From: Reyranella massiliensis 521
GTDB lineage: Bacteria; Pseudomonadota; Alphaproteobacteria; Reyranellales; Reyranellaceae
NCBI RefSeq assembly: GCF_000312425.1
Contig: NZ_HE997181.1
Location: 3,439,044 to 3,503,043 of the forward strand
DNA: 64,000 nucleotides
Direction of reading: 5' to 3'
Shown here: positions 869 through 61,313 of the stretch, piece after piece
Layout: each line of letters begins with the position of its first letter
Position numbering within the stretch: the first letter of the stretch is position 1
Program-made: the position numbers and the translations under genes
Notes under the pieces: generated by a model
The model's input: the letters and a program-made list of their open reading frames with translations, nothing else
Databases searched by the model: none
What the model was told of the DNA's origin: nothing

Positions 869-2208
869 CAGACGAAGGGGCCGAGCGGATAGGGCTCGGC
901 CGGCGGGAACGGCTGCCAGCCCTCGAAATCCTTCGGCGGCGCGATGATGCCGTCGCCGCGCTTGGAGCGCAGCACGAGGCTCTGGCTGGGCAGGATCCAT
1001 GGCTCGACCAGCATCTCCAGCGGCCGTTTGGCAAGCGGCGTGTTCTCGTAGGCGATGACCCCATTCTGCTGGCGCACGATCGTCTGGACGGTCTGGAGAT
1101 AGTTGCGCCATTCCAAAGTGAGGAACATGTCGGACGGCACCATGGCCAGCACCATCAGCCAGCCGAAGGTCATCAACCGCCGCGCCGCCATCGGCTGCCG
1201 CAGCTGCCGGAACACCGCGATCCTGTCGGCCAGTGGCGACTTGTAGATCCAGATGAGCACAGCGACGGTCGCGACCACGAGGCCGGCAATGCTGCGCGCC
1301 ACGTACTGCGACTTGGCGTGTGGCCGCACCAGCGTGTCGGTCAGCGACAGCAGCGGCGAGACGACCAGCACAGCCAGGAAGAAGCCGGCGAACAGATAAG
1401 GCCTCGGCGTGGCCAGATCGGCTGGACGGACGATCGCCCAGACGACGATCACGAGCGCCGCCAGCAAGGTCAGATCGAACTGCACGTTCTGCCAGGCATT
1501 GAGGACGGTCGCCGCCGTCTTGCTGAGATGCTCCTGAGAGAACGGATGGATCAGCGAGTCGGCAGCCACCACCATGCCGCCCAGGAACAGCAAGACGGCA
1601 AGGACATGCAGCGTGGTCGCGAACCACGGCCGTTCCTGGGCGCGGTACACGCACCAGGCGATCATCAGGGCGACCAGCGGGCCGCAATAGATCATCACCT
1701 CGTAGGTCCGAAAGCTCAGGACACCGGCTGCAACGAGAAACGCGCCGTCGGTGACGGTCAGCCGTTCTGCCGTCATCAGTCTCGCCGTGACGGCAACGAC
1801 GACTGCAAACGCAGTGTTGTATTCGCCGACGATGAAGAACGACGTCGTCATGAACACGATGCCGATCACGGCCAGGACGGCGGCCAGCAGGACTGGGTCG
1901 TGCCGCACCCGCGTCAGGGCGACGTGATAGAAGGCCGTCGGCAGCGCCAGCAGGCCGAGCGACAGGAGCTTGGCTAACAAATGGAGGTCCGTGACCCCCA
2001 GAAAGAGCGCGATGATGGCGGGAAACTGCCCCAGCACCATGGCGTAAAGCCGCGGTCCGTAGAAATCGAAGAACCATTCGCGGCGGGCAATCTGCACGAG
2101 GAATGCCGATCCGTCGACGAACAGGCCCCGGCTCTCCCAGCTATGCCAGAGCACCAGGATCCAGAGCAGACCGACAGTGGTCCTGTACGCGATTGTAGTT
2201 GTTGGCAT
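859..2208 (-). CDS. Multi-pass membrane protein of unknown function
   Basis: The 449-residue protein has about ten strongly hydrophobic segments spread over residues 5-340, then a soluble tail of roughly 80 residues rich in Pro, Trp and charged residues. The layout resembles the uncharacterised integral membrane proteins found beside glycosyltransferase or O-antigen genes, but no catalytic motif of the GT39/GT83 type is recognised. The ATG at 2208 is taken because the first helix begins immediately after it; the Shine-Dalgarno sequence is weak. It is divergent from the methyltransferase gene at 2316 and converges on the carboxylase gene. Function is not assigned. Confidence 0.75.
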   Translation of the reverse strand: MPTTTIAYRTTVGLLWILVLWHSWESRGLFVDGSAFLVQIARREWFFDFYGPRLYAMVLGQFPAIIALFLGVTDLHLLAKLLSLGLLALPTAFYHVALTRVRHDPVLLAAVLAVIGIVFMTTSFFIVGEYNTAFAVVVAVTARLMTAERLTVTDGAFLVAAGVLSFRTYEVMIYCGPLVALMIAWCVYRAQERPWFATTLHVLAVLLFLGGMVVAADSLIHPFSQEHLSKTAATVLNAWQNVQFDLTLLAALVIVVWAIVRPADLATPRPYLFAGFFLAVLVVSPLLSLTDTLVRPHAKSQYVARSIAGLVVATVAVLIWIYKSPLADRIAVFRQLRQPMAARRLMTFGWLMVLAMVPSDMFLTLEWRNYLQTVQTIVRQQNGVIAYENTPLAKRPLEMLVEPWILPSQSLVLRSKRGDGIIAPPKDFEGWQPFPPAEPYPLGPFVWRD

Positions 2209-2315
2209 TTTCCGGTGTTGGCGGCTCTACCGGACGGTTGCCGCAGGTGCAAGCGCTGACGGCTTGCGGCATCGTGAGGGCGCTGTTAGCAAGGCGCCGC
2301 ACACGAGGACCGACG

Positions 2316-12425: not shown

Positions 12426-14293
12426 TGGCGCCCGCGCCCACCGGCGGACCGGCTAGCGCCGACATGCTGCGCTTCATCACCTGCGGCAGCGTCGATGATG
12501 GCAAGAGCACACTGATCGGCCGCCTGCTGTTCGATGCCAAGGTCATCCCCGATGATCACCTCACCGCCGCAACTCGCAATGATCATGCCTACCGTGCCCC
12601 CGGCGGCATACCCGACCTCGCCCTGTTGGTCGACGGTCTGCAGGTCGAACGCGAACAGGGCATCACGATTGACGTGGGCTATCGCTTCTTCGCGACCGCC
12701 CGACGACGCTTCATCATCGCCGACACGCCGGGCCACGAGCAGTACACGCGCAACATGGCAACGGGGGCTTCGACTGCCGATGTGGCGGTGATCCTGGTCG
12801 ACGCCCGCAAGGGTGTCCTGCGCCAGACCCGGCGGCACAGTGCCATTGTGGCGCTGATGGGCATCCGCCACGTCGTGCTCGCCGTCAACAAGATGGATCT
12901 AATAGATTACGGTGAGGCTCGCTTCGAAGAAATCGTCGCGACGTACAAGCCGATCGCAGAACAGTTGAGCGTGCAATCCGTCGCCGCCCTCCCTCTGTCG
13001 GCCCTGCTGGGCGACAACGTCATCCAGCCCAGCATTGCCATGCCGTGGTATCGTGGGCCGACGCTGCTGCACCATTTGGAAACCGTAAGTGTCGAATTAC
13101 CGAAGACGCAGCCGTTCCGACTAGCCGTGCAGTGCATCAATCGCGACGCCTCGGGGTTCCGCGGCTATGCGGGCACAGTTCTGGGCGGCGGCATCGGCCC
13201 CGGCGATGAGGTCGTGGTTCTGCCTTCAGGCATGCGCGGCCATGTCGAGCGCATCGTGACCTGGGAGGGCGATCTTGCCCAGGCAGTCGCCGGCCAGGCG
13301 GTAACCGTGACCCTGGCCGAGCCGATCGACATCGCACGCGGCGACATGATTGCGGCCGCCGACCAGCCTCCACAGATGACCGACCAGTTCGCAGCCCATC
13401 TCGTGTGGATGGACGAGGCGCCAATGCTGCCGGGCCGCCACTACCTGATGCATCTCGGCACGGCCAAGCTGACCGCGATGGTAAGCGAGCTGAAGCATGT
13501 CCTCGATATCGACAGCGGCCAGCACAAGGCCGCCAAGCAGCTCGCGATGAACGATATCGGCTTTGCCAATCTGTCGCTCGACCGTGCCGTGCCCTTCGAT
13601 GCCTATGCCGAAAACAGGGAGACCGGCAGCTTCATCCTGATAGACCGCGTCAGCAACGCGACCGTCGGCGCCGGCATGATCCGCTTTCCGCTGCGCCGAG
13701 CCACCAATCTCACCTGGCAGGATTTCACCGTCGACAAACGGGCGCGCGCGGCGATCAAAGGCCAGCAGCCGGCGGTCCTGTGGTTCACCGGTCTTTCCGG
13801 GGCCGGCAAGTCGACCATTGCCGACAGCGTCGAGAGGCGACTGCATGCGCTAGGGCGCCACACCTACACGCTCGACGGTGACAATGTCCGCCACGGACTG
13901 AACCGCGATCTCGGCTTCACCGACGCCGACCGGGTCGAGAACATCCGCCGGGTCGTCGAGACCGCCCGGCTGTTCGCCGATGCGGGCCTGATCGTCCTGG
14001 TGTCCTTCATTTCGCCATTCCGCGCCGAACGGCAACTAGCCCGCGACCGGGTGGGTGCCGAAGAATTCATCGAGATATTCGTCGACACCACGCTGGCCGA
14101 ATGCGAACGGCGCGATCCCAAGGGCCTCTATCGCAAGGCGCGCACTGGCCAGCTCCCGAACTTCACCGGCATCGATTCAGCCTACGAGCCCCCGCCCCGT
14201 CCCGAGCTGCATCTCCGCACGGCCAACCATTCGGTCGAACAGGCGACCGACCTGATCCTCGAGACCTTGCGCCAGCGCGGCATCATCGACTGA
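12425..14293 (+). CDS. cysNC: Bifunctional sulfate adenylyltransferase subunit 1 / adenylylsulfate kinase (CysN-CysC fusion)
   Basis: 622 residues with two enzymes in one chain. The N-terminal GTPase (residues 1-430) shows [26 protein letters not shown] and NKMD, the EF-Tu-like motifs of CysN. The C-terminal APS kinase starts near residue 445, with its P-loop GLSGAGKST near 457 and GLYRKARTG near the end. The product makes APS with CysD and then PAPS. Fusion of this type (NodQ-like) is common in rhizobia and other Alphaproteobacteria. Its last 11 bases overlap the convergent IclR gene. Confidence 0.93.
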
Positions 14294-56204: not shown

Positions 56205-56255
56205 AGCGTCTATGTCTTGCCGCGGACACATGACCTGCGGCATCCTCGGATCGTG

Positions 56256-57239
56256 GTGACATCGACGAAATCTCTTCGCCGCCGATCGATACTTGGCGCG
56301 GCACTTGTGGCTCCGGCACTCGTTCACGCGCAGACGGGCCTGCCCGATCGAGCGCTGCGCATCATCATCGGCTTCGCGGCAGGCGGTGGCTCAGACGTCA
56401 TGGCCCGTCTCATCGCCGCCGCACTCGAGCGGCGCGTCGGACGCAGGATCACCGTCGAGAATCGTCCGGGAGGTACGGGGGCTGCCGCCGGCGAAGCGCT
56501 GAAGATTGGCGGTACCGACGGCAGCATGGTCGCCTTCATGCCGAGCCCTTCGCTGATCGCGAAGCTCTTCGTGCCGACTTATCCAATCGATCCGCTAACC
56601 GACCTGGCGCCGATCACGATCGCCGGCACTTTCGTCGAAGCCTTCGCCGTCTCGCCCAAGGTCGACGTTTCGACCGTGGCGGAATATGTCGAATGGCTGA
56701 AGGCCGGCGAGCCGGGACGCAACAAGGTCGGCACCACGGCAACCGATGCCATGTTGCAGTACTACACGCGCCTGCTCAGCCGCGAGTTCGGCGTGCCGAT
56801 GGAAGGCCAGGCCTTTCGCGGAACCGCGCCGCTGGTAGCCGACATGGAGGCCGGCAAGGTGCCAGCAGGTGTCGCCGGACTCACCTCCTTCCTCGTCGCG
56901 CATCGCGGCAACCGCCTGCGCATCCTTGCCACCTCCGGTTCCAAGAGAGTTTCGGTGGCGCCCGACCTGCCGACCGCGGCGGAGGCCGGCTATCCGGGTC
57001 TGACGATGGAGGAGTGGTATGGCTTCTTCGCCGCCGCCAACACGCCGCCGCCTCTGGTCGATGCCTGGAATCAGGCCCTCACCGCCGTGCTGAAGGACAA
57101 GGAAGTCATCGAGCGGCTCTCCCAGTTGGGCCTCGAGGTGGAGACCTCCACGCCGGCCGCCTGCGGCGAGCGGCTCGCCGCCCATATGAAGAAGTGGCAG
57201 GCGACCTTGCAGGGGCTCGGTCTGAGGCCGACGCTGTAA
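56256..57239 (+). CDS. Bug-family (TctC) periplasmic receptor
   Basis: 327 residues from a GTG; the exact start is uncertain, with GTG at 56253 and TTG at 56217 also in frame. A twin-arginine-like LRRRSILGAALVAPALVHAQ signal is followed by RALRIIIGFAAGGGSDVMAR and VENRPGGTGAAAGEAL, both Bug hallmarks, and LPTAAEAGYPG. Orphan receptor. The next gene begins 29 bases later. Confidence 0.85.
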   Translation: MTSTKSLRRRSILGAALVAPALVHAQTGLPDRALRIIIGFAAGGGSDVMARLIAAALERRVGRRITVENRPGGTGAAAGEALKIGGTDGSMVAFMPSPSLIAKLFVPTYPIDPLTDLAPITIAGTFVEAFAVSPKVDVSTVAEYVEWLKAGEPGRNKVGTTATDAMLQYYTRLLSREFGVPMEGQAFRGTAPLVADMEAGKVPAGVAGLTSFLVAHRGNRLRILATSGSKRVSVAPDLPTAAEAGYPGLTMEEWYGFFAAANTPPPLVDAWNQALTAVLKDKEVIERLSQLGLEVETSTPAACGERLAAHMKKWQATLQGLGLRPTL

Positions 57240-57268
57240 GCGCATAGATGCCGGAAGGGGAATCAGGG

Positions 57269-57652
57269 ATGTTCAGCCACGTCACCATCGGCAGCAACGA
57301 TCTCGCGAAGGCGAAATCTTTCTACGACGAGCTGCTGAAGCCGCTCGGCCTGGTGCGTCATCTCGAGTTCCCGACGGCGGTCGGGTATGGCCGTCCCGGT
57401 GGCCGGCCGCAGCTCTGGGTGCTGAACCCGCTCGACGAGAAGGCGGCCACGGTCGGCAATGGCGTCACCATCGGTCTTGAAGCCGACAACCGTGGCAGCG
57501 TAGACGCGGCCTACAAGGCCGCCATGAACGCCGGGGCGAAAGACGAAGGCGCGCCGGGTCTGCGGCCGCACTATCATCCCGACTACTATGGCGCCTATGT
57601 GCGCGACCTCGACGGCAACAAGATCTGCGTCGTCTGCCACAAGAAACCCTGA
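57269..57652 (+). CDS. VOC family protein (glyoxalase/bleomycin-resistance fold)
   Basis: 127 residues from the ATG at 57269, chosen over 57248 because homology begins at MFSHVTIGSNDLAKAKSFYD and AGGGG lies upstream. His4 and a C-terminal Glu/Asp-Gly-Asn region (YVRDLDGNKI) would form the metal site. Substrate unknown. Its stop lies 14 bases before the start of the glutaredoxin-DinB gene, which has its ribosome-binding site in that gap. Confidence 0.83.
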   Translation: MFSHVTIGSNDLAKAKSFYDELLKPLGLVRHLEFPTAVGYGRPGGRPQLWVLNPLDEKAATVGNGVTIGLEADNRGSVDAAYKAAMNAGAKDEGAPGLRPHYHPDYYGAYVRDLDGNKICVVCHKKP

Positions 57653-57666
57653 GCAGGAGAGCAAGC

Positions 57667-58419
57667 ATGACGGAGCCACTGAAGGTCTTCTGGCAGCCCG
57701 GTTGAACGAGCTGTCTGAGACTCAAGGAGTTTCTATCGGTCCGTGGGATCGACTTCGTTTCAGTAAATGTACTCGAGGATCCGGCCGGCCTGGCTGAGCT
57801 GCAGGCGCTCGGCGTGCGATCCGTGCCGGTGCTGTCGCGCGGCAAGGACTTCGTGTTCGGCCAGAGCCTGCCGCAGATCGTGGCCTTCCTCGGGCTTGCC
57901 GAGAAGGCAGGCCCCGCCCTCTCGGCGGACGAACTCAGCCGGCGCCTCGACAAGTTCATGAGCGCGGCCCTCGCGCTGTTGCCGCTGATGCCGGCGGAGC
58001 GCCTGCACATCCATGTGCCCGGCCGGCCGCGCAGCTACCGCGCGCTGGCCTTCCATCTGTTCAAGGTGGTCGATGCCTTCCTCGACGCCGAGCAAGGCAT
58101 CACACTGGTCCAGGCGATGTTCCGGGAGGAGCCGGCACCCGATGCCGGGCACGGGGCGCTCGTCGACTACGGCGCGTCCATACGAGGTCGCTTCCGCGCC
58201 TGGCGTGCGGATGGCGACACCGATCCGTCCCGATCGCTTGCCACCTACTATGGCGCGCAAAGCCTGCATGAATTGCTCGAACGGACGACCTGGCACTCGG
58301 GCCAGCACGTTCGGCAATGGATGATGTTGCTGGAGCGCGAGGGCGTGTCGTTCCAGCGCCCGCTCGGCGATGCCGATTTCGCCCGTCTGCCAATGCCGGC
58401 CAACGTCTGGGACGGCTGA
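57667..58419 (+). CDS. Putative selenoprotein: glutaredoxin domain (UTSC) fused to DinB-like domain
   Basis: 250 residues if TGA at 57703-57705 is read as selenocysteine 13. The ATG at 57667 has AGGAGA 7 bases upstream. Residues 5-78 form a glutaredoxin: VFWQPG-U-TSC in place of WQPGCTSC, then LRLKEFL, and the cis-Pro segment VRSVPVLSR. Residues 95-245 form a DinB-like four-helix fold with His pairs (AFHLFKVVDAF and WHSGQHVRQW), as in thiol-dependent metalloenzymes. The frame stays open and conserved-looking after the TGA, with no further lesion. If TGA is a stop, the gene is a nonsense-mutated pseudogene and only a shorter DinB protein could start at a later GTG. The cysteine-to-Sec place and hairpin favour selenocysteine. 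Confidence 0.65.
57717..57733 (+). promoter_or_regulatory. Candidate bacterial SECIS hairpin
   Basis: GAGACTC (57717-57723) pairs with GAGTTTC (57727-57733) in seven base pairs, one of them G-U, around the loop AAG. The loop begins 19 bases after the TGA, inside the range described for bacterial SECIS elements. The stem is formed by AGA, TTT and CTA codons, which look out of place in this GC-rich gene set. The loop lacks a G in its first two positions, so it is not a textbook match. Confidence 0.5.
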
Positions 58420-60320: not shown

Positions 60321-61313
60321 ATGACCAAGAGACTGATTACCCGCCGCACTTCGCTGTGGCTGGCCGGCGCCGCCGCAGCAGCCCCGCTCGCCTCGGTGCG
60401 TGCACAGCAAACCGGCCTGCCCGACAAGCCGCTCAAGATCCTGGTCGGCTTTCCGGCCGGCGGCGGCACCGACGTGATGGCGCGCTTCCTGGCCGAGCCC
60501 CTGAAGCAGCGTACCGGCCGCAATGTCCTGATCGAAAACAAGGCGGGAGCTTCCGGCACGATCGCCATCGAGACTCTGAAGAACTCTCCACCCGACGGCA
60601 CGACGATCGCCTATGTGCCGAGCGCCACGATCATCCAGAAGATCACCATGCCGGGCGTTACCTGGGATCCCGTGACCGACCTCGCGCCGGTCGCCCAGGC
60701 GGGCACGGTGCAGACGGCGTTCTGTGTCTCGCCGACCATCGGCGCAAACAATCTCAAGGAGTATATCGCCTGGCTGAAGAAGAACCCCGACCGGCACAGT
60801 TTCGGCACGACGGCACTGGGTTCTTCGACGCATTTCTTCGGCGTAATGGCGGGCAGGGAAATCGGCATCCCGCTCGAGCCGGTGCCCTATCGCGGCGCGG
60901 CGCCGCTGGTTGCCGATCTGCAGGGTGGCCATATCGCGGCCGGCTGCGGCGGCATCACCGACTTCCTGGAGCATCACCGTGCCGGCAAGGTGAAGGTGAT
61001 CTTCACTTCAGGCGTGAAGCCCACGACGTCGGCGCCGGACATCCCCACCATCAGCCAGCTCGGCTATCCGCAGCTCGCATCGCTCGGCTGGTACGTTTTC
61101 TTTGCTCCCGCCAAGACGCCCAAGCCGTTGCTCGATGCCTGGGGCAAGGAGCTGAACGCAGTGCTGGCCCAGCCCGAAGTACAGAAGAAGCTCGTCGAAC
61201 TGGGCCTCGACGTGGAACCGGCAACTCCGGCAGAATTCACCGCGCGCCTGGTGAAGGACCTCGGCGACTGGAAGAGGACCGTCGACTCGATCGGCTACAA
61301 GCCACAGGGTTGA
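60321..61313 (+). CDS. Bug-family (TctC) periplasmic receptor
   Basis: 330 residues. Twin-arginine-like signal TRRTSLWLAGAAAAAPLASVRA, then PLKILVGFPAGGGTDVMARF, ENKAGASGTIAIE and IPTISQLGYPQ, all family hallmarks. AGGAG is 10 bases before the ATG. Another orphan receptor for a carboxylate-like ligand. It is about as close to the receptor at 56256 in its motifs as to the one at 38331. The hydrolase gene follows after 19 bases. Confidence 0.9.
   Translation: MTKRLITRRTSLWLAGAAAAAPLASVRAQQTGLPDKPLKILVGFPAGGGTDVMARFLAEPLKQRTGRNVLIENKAGASGTIAIETLKNSPPDGTTIAYVPSATIIQKITMPGVTWDPVTDLAPVAQAGTVQTAFCVSPTIGANNLKEYIAWLKKNPDRHSFGTTALGSSTHFFGVMAGREIGIPLEPVPYRGAAPLVADLQGGHIAAGCGGITDFLEHHRAGKVKVIFTSGVKPTTSAPDIPTISQLGYPQLASLGWYVFFAPAKTPKPLLDAWGKELNAVLAQPEVQKKLVELGLDVEPATPAEFTARLVKDLGDWKRTVDSIGYKPQG

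Follow-up and report, generated by a model that had tools for sequence, protein, structure and literature searches.

The sequence analysis predicts that Reyranella massiliensis 521 encodes a selenoprotein in which a glutaredoxin is fused to a DinB-type domain. The gene lies at 57667-58419 on the forward strand of the analysed stretch (the window, 64,000 nucleotides of a 5.79 Mb single-contig genome) and yields 250 residues when the in-frame TGA at codon 13 (57703-57705) is read as selenocysteine (Sec) within the motif QPGUTSC. Readthrough gives the translation MTEPLKVFWQPG-U-TSCLRLKEFL..., which ends at a second TGA (58417-58419). As a whole, the observations are explained with high confidence by a Sec-encoding TGA, a Sec insertion sequence (SECIS) at 57736-57752, and a probable accessory role for another hairpin at 57717-57733, which lies nearer to the TGA and had been flagged as the candidate SECIS by an earlier sequence-only reading.

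The TGA aligns exactly with the first Cys of the CxxC motif in relatives, and position 13 is invariantly C or U across 40 aligned proteins (40 of 43 chosen; L135, L138 and L117 were dropped when a start search returned no ATG in range). Across all fetched loci, codon 13 is TGA in 111 and TGC or TGT in 38. In particular, 68 of 76 genomes from the host's order have matches at an E-value of 1e-20 or better, and every one of the 68 has a copy containing a single in-frame TGA; counted by family, 68 of 75 genomes hold a TGA copy. Evenly drawn genomes of the class gave 32 matches out of 385, of which 19 have the TGA and 13 lack it. Copies as far apart as 43% identity keep the in-frame TGA, and the reading frame continues after it. 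A phylum search matched only 2 of 398 genomes, both from the genus of the window, and is therefore silent on Sec forms outside the class. Within three genomes (G378, at L138 and a second place; G057; and G062), a TGA copy coexists with a stop-free paralogue of the fusion protein. From these alignments, codon 13 is predicted to encode selenocysteine in a UxxC active site.

The host genome is equipped to read such a codon, with a tRNA-Sec (75.4 bits, also called as tRNA-SeC by ARAGORN, anticodon TCA), SelB (455 bits) and SelD (288 bits). SelA is presumably the open reading frame (ORF) at L009 15731-17116, beside selB and tRNA-Sec, named from its sequence and not by a hidden Markov model. The host's fdhG gene, for formate dehydrogenase, has its own Sec UGA followed by a canonical-looking SECIS with the loop AGU at 18 nt. 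Moreover, 19 of the 20 Sec genomes tested have a SelB match, versus 3 of 13 Cys genomes (Fisher p = 3e-5), and the sole Sec genome lacking a match is 77% complete. The machinery genes belong to a cluster, spanning L009 (about 11-31 kb upstream of the window) and L010, that is read as fdhD, tRNA-Sec, selB, selA, fdhE, fdhI, fdhH and fdhG; the ORFs near selB and tRNA-Sec are those that we take to be FdhE, FdhI, FdhH and FdhD. Inside the window, a translation-factor-like GTPase at 12644-13495 (G000:C1:3451687-3452538) scores 103 bits against the SelB model, under its cut-off.

Many of the 111 Sec loci are identical assemblies reached by two tools, and structure counts therefore use 67 distinct Sec stretches, 35 close and 32 distant, with 38 Cys stretches as a control. 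The Sec stretches of 66 nt align without gaps, column 1 corresponding to 57700. On these 67 stretches RNAalifold predicts a single helix, pairing columns 37-42 with 48-53 (57736-57741 with 57747-57752) around the loop CGUGN. In the window, this second hairpin (57736-57752, forward strand) reads UCGGUCC-GUG-GGAUCGA, and its loop can be drawn as GUG or CGUGG. Overall, 94.5% of its cells are paired, and its covariation of 0.180 compares with at most 0.046 for slid versions and was reached by 0 of 500 shuffles. Compensatory changes occur in two lineages: pair 41-49 is U-A in 55 stretches and C-G in 11, having changed twice on the protein tree, while pair 37-53 changes from U-A to G-C once (L132), through Ser-to-Ala plus Asp/Glu-to-Ala changes. 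Pair 40-50 is G-U in 54 stretches and A-U in 12. The tree, built by a quick method with the SECIS-coding columns excluded, covers 91 of the 105 distinct stretches, omitting a Sec fragment and 13 Cys rows, and carries a long-branch warning. Next to this helix, columns 36 and 54 (57735 and 57753) are paired in 28 of 32 distant Sec copies (C-G in 15, G-C in 11 and U-A in 2) and form an A-C mismatch, via the rare CTA codon, in 31 of 35 close ones.

The Cys control matters because related sequences can beat shuffles without any structure. In the Cys stretches, the same columns are 47.7% paired with no covariation excess, and RNAalifold finds only three weak pairs, located elsewhere. An unsupervised covariation scan placed pair 41-49 second; the top pair, 18-24 in the region of the first hairpin, tracks clade-specific codons, so that such scores are weak by themselves. 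All 67 Sec stretches contain a model-compliant hairpin (at least 5 bp, -4 kcal/mol or better), as does a single one of the 38 Cys stretches; in 66 of the 67 it is the second hairpin. Further, when compared with synonymous redraws, the stability of the second-hairpin region has a median p of 0.03 in both Sec sets and 0.60 in the Cys set. The loop is built by codon 26, and all but one of the 111 Sec loci use CGT there, whereas Cys loci mostly have Gln or His and Arg in 1 of 38, so that the protein sequence follows the RNA.

Section 5 of PMC13188914 describes the bacterial SECIS (bSECIS) model as a loop of 3-9 nt on a stem of 4-16 bp, with a minimum free energy (MFE) of -7.5 kcal/mol or lower, a G as the first or second loop base, commonly with G or U next, and a spacing of 16-37 nt. 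The second hairpin falls within each of these bounds. Its loop has 3 or 5 nt and its stem, correspondingly, 7 or 6 bp; within C-G-U-G-G, N1 and N2 can pair and the G is placed early; the spacing is 36 nt for the loop CGUGG or 37 nt for GUG; and the MFE of the hairpin alone is -7.5 kcal/mol, with -15.7 kcal/mol for the 54-nt stretch after the UGA. On evidence from sequence comparison that we regard as strong, the hairpin at 57736-57752 is most likely the SECIS, and the predicted binding site of SelB. An Rfam scan of the window returned one tRNA and no SECIS family, and the pattern CTCAARGAGTTY gave 6 matches in the organism's own genome versus 4 for a reversed control, which is uninformative.

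Several observations weigh against this assignment or against an accessory first hairpin. At 36-37 nt, the spacing reaches the maximum of the published range, independent compensatory events are few, and a strict threshold of -7.5 kcal/mol on the hairpin alone leaves 53 of the 67 Sec stretches and none of the 38 Cys ones. In naked-RNA folding, 13 of the 67 stretches show the second hairpin at a probability below 0.5, and in 8 of them it competes with the first hairpin resting on a lower stem, which also speaks against a simple picture of two hairpins. One Sec stretch, L166 (G476, 2158-2223, minus strand), has a broken second hairpin. As for the first hairpin, its region does not stand out in stability from synonymous redraws (median p of 0.13 in the close group, with 0 of 35 at p ≤ 0.05), and in the 12 of 67 stretches tested its codons did not significantly insulate the second hairpin. 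In L166, another compliant hairpin stands in, with the stem CGAAAG/CUUUCG and the loop AGUUU at 22 nt, 14 nt nearer to the UGA, an apparent relocation of the SECIS.

The first hairpin (57717-57733, forward strand; GAGACUC-AAG-GAGUUUC as RNA) exists much as the sequence-only reading described it: GAGACTC (57717-57723) and GAGTTTC (57727-57733) form seven pairs, one of them G-U, around the loop AAG (57724-57726), which starts at base 19 after the TGA. Its codons are as unusual as that reading supposed, since across 12 neighbouring genes (4469 codons) AGA makes up 0.8% of Arg codons, CTA 1.5% of Leu codons and TTT 12% of Phe codons. Of 47 distinct close sequences, 43 have AGA and 3 have AGG in its place, 46 have CTA, and all 47 have CTC, GAG and TTT. 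The naked fold of the 61-nt stretch is unexceptional (z of -0.80), and it is conservation at synonymous sites that goes beyond chance. Codons 15, 17-19 and 21-29 are near-invariant at synonymous sites in these sequences, and the variable third bases are those of codons 14, 16 and 20 (57708, 57714 and 57726), all outside the first stem or in its loop. Codon identity averages 0.85 over codons 14-23, 1.00 over codons 24-29, 0.53 over codons 30-33 and 0.63 over codons 34-122, and the constraint on the first-hairpin region is therefore real, in the close family only, and ends at codons 30-31. The unusual codons do extend to about 57780 (GTT TCA GTA AAT GTA), as the same reading had cautioned, but codons 31-35 vary freely among relatives and are therefore outside the signal. 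The sequence-only reading was right about a Sec TGA and about selection at the RNA level on the codons after it, while the role of SECIS passes from the flagged hairpin to the next one, which has what SelB recognises: a G-U within a small loop and a covarying stem, kept by every distinct Sec stretch except one. Because its rare codons are near-invariant in the close group, the first hairpin is probably accessory.

In E. coli, it is established that SelB carrying Sec-tRNA binds the apical loop of a SECIS and delivers Sec to a ribosome paused at the UGA. For Reyranella we infer the same mode of action: SelB would recognise the G-U at the tip of the 57736-57752 hairpin and would deliver Sec to a ribosome paused at the TGA at 57703. 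The first hairpin may then act as a spacer hairpin, a role that we only infer. By folding out 17 nt, it would reduce the effective spacing from 36 to 19 nt, and a CGUGG loop at an effective 19 nt would be placed much like the fdhG loop of this genome, which lies at 18 nt. More tentatively, and on balance rather doubtfully, the two hairpins may compose a tandem element, in which a G-less spacer hairpin folds out RNA and places a distal SECIS with a G-U loop at a normal effective distance, while the SelB-binding hairpin can move within the gene, as in L166, with the protein sequence following.

The near-invariant codons of the first region might instead be kept for translational pausing at rare codons, or against misfolding with the second hairpin, and not for base pairing. 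This is quite conceivable, though not the account that we favour: CTA (57733-57735) is kept although base 57735, its third, has no partner, the first region folds with unremarkable energy, and the natural probability of the second hairpin exceeds the redraw mean in 10 of 12 stretches tested, none significantly. Pairing is nevertheless suggested by the free synonymous sites at 57708, 57714 and 57726, which avoid the paired positions, and by the sole change at a stem wobble position (AGA to AGG, 3 of 47), which still allows a G-U pair. It is improbable that the flagged hairpin, alone or on its lower stem (57710-57713 with 57737-57740), is itself the SECIS of the close family and the downstream hairpin secondary. 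In its favour, every one of the 35 close stretches keeps the seven pairs of its stem, its rare AGA and CTA codons persist as described above, its loop spacing of 18 nt resembles that of fdhG, and, together with the lower stem, it is the MFE fold of 57700-57760. Among the distant Sec stretches, however, the seven pairs survive in only 2 of 32 (L090 and L128), so that 30 TGA-bearing stretches lack the stem, the very pattern that the sequence-only reading had set against its own proposal. The covariance analysis proposed in its support finds none (0.067, under the shuffled mean of 0.082), and the lower-stem pair 12-40 is broken in 7 of 35 close stretches. The loop, AAG or in many relatives AAA, has no G in its first two positions and so fails the bSECIS model, a weak point named at the outset that proved decisive. 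The flagged hairpin was rejected as SECIS on loop rule, conservation and covariation.

Two other accounts concern the TGA itself. Its decoding as Cys or Trp by another tRNA, suggested by the Cys found there in relatives, is very improbable given the tRNA-Sec with a TCA anticodon amid full Sec machinery, the usual Sec site of fdhG in the same genome, and a covarying SECIS-like hairpin that is restricted to TGA copies. That it is a real stop or a recent lesion, with a pseudogene or separate gene downstream, is scarcely credible: TGA does act as a normal terminator at other places, such as the ends of the fusion gene and of the gene at 57248-57652, but the in-frame TGA of codon 13 recurs in 111 loci, copies of 43% identity included, and an open frame continues after it; it also aligns exactly with Cys and is followed by synonymous constraint.

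In the fusion protein, the glutaredoxin domain (PF00462) occupies the first 75 residues or so and scores 40.5 bits, above the Pfam gathering cut-off of 22.9. The DinB_2 domain (PF12867) scores 16.5 bits, under its cut-off of 24.8, and is matched at E ≤ 0.01 by 36 of 40 relatives; an NCBIfam scan returned glutaredoxin models only, all sub-threshold. An AlphaFold model with a predicted local distance difference test (pLDDT) score of 93 matches DinB/YfiT structures 6iz2 (template modelling score of 0.79 on the target) and 1rxq in one part and glutaredoxins 7c10 and 3zit in the other, and the closest solved chain by sequence is 7c10, titled 'Dithiol cGrx1'. His 130, 210 and 214 are invariant in 40 of 40 aligned fusion proteins, presumably as expected for the three-His metal site of DinB proteins. 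The part of PMC5815605 consulted calls DinB-type proteins thiol transferases, some of them carrying an additional domain that is believed to determine specificity, and on that basis a role of the fusion in thiol transfer or detoxification is a guess.

Directly upstream of the fusion gene lies a small gene at 57248-57652, which we take to be VOC/glyoxalase-like. Of the 111 Sec loci only 24 have it within 300 bp, and none of the 38 Cys loci do, so that it was rejected as a constant operon partner. Flanking genes of other relatives (10 ORFs, 7 of 8 loci inspected) have nothing in common in Pfam terms. Two similar proteins encoded at 56217-57239 and 60321-61313 presumably belong with the tricarboxylate-receptor (Bug) family of binding proteins.

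The element shares with the bSECIS of PMC13188914, as presented in the sections consulted, a coding-region hairpin after the UGA with a loop N1-G-U-N-N2, a 16-37 nt spacing and a stem of 6-8 pairs; it differs in sitting at the upper spacing limit and in having, in the close family, a conserved G-less hairpin between UGA and SECIS. It likewise shares a Sec UGA and an apical G-U with the fdhG SECIS of its own genome, but its loop lies 36-37 nt after the UGA and that of fdhG 18 nt. The selenoprotein glutaredoxin (Grx, PF00462, UxxC) of Table 1 in PMC13188914 has the same fold and likewise carries Sec in place of the first CxxC Cys, whereas the Reyranella protein is fused to a DinB-type domain, a combination absent from the families in that table. 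From the side of the DinB/YfiT (S-transferase-like) superfamily (PF12867; PDB 6iz2 and 1rxq), with which it shares the fold match and presumably the three His that are invariant here, the protein adds an N-terminal selenoglutaredoxin. In the parts of PMC13188914 consulted, the inventory of 119 selenoprotein families and subfamilies lists glutaredoxin UxxC and no DinB fusion, and the word DinB appears nowhere in the whole paper. Within a partial coverage of the literature, no description was found of a selenoprotein glutaredoxin-DinB fusion, of the Reyranella case or of a SECIS with a second hairpin. The mechanism is a known one, and the novelty lies in the architecture of the gene, the extreme distance from UGA to SECIS and the conserved hairpin between the two.

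According to the portion consulted of a 2006 survey (PMC1794560), fdhA, a formate dehydrogenase, was the only selenoprotein then known in Alphaproteobacteria. The predicted glutaredoxin-DinB selenoprotein architecture is present across several alphaproteobacterial families, and its gene is easily mis-annotated, since a pipeline that reads the TGA as a stop loses the active site. Moreover, the closely sampled relatives would constitute a natural mutational series of a SECIS at extreme spacing, making the spacing rule testable.
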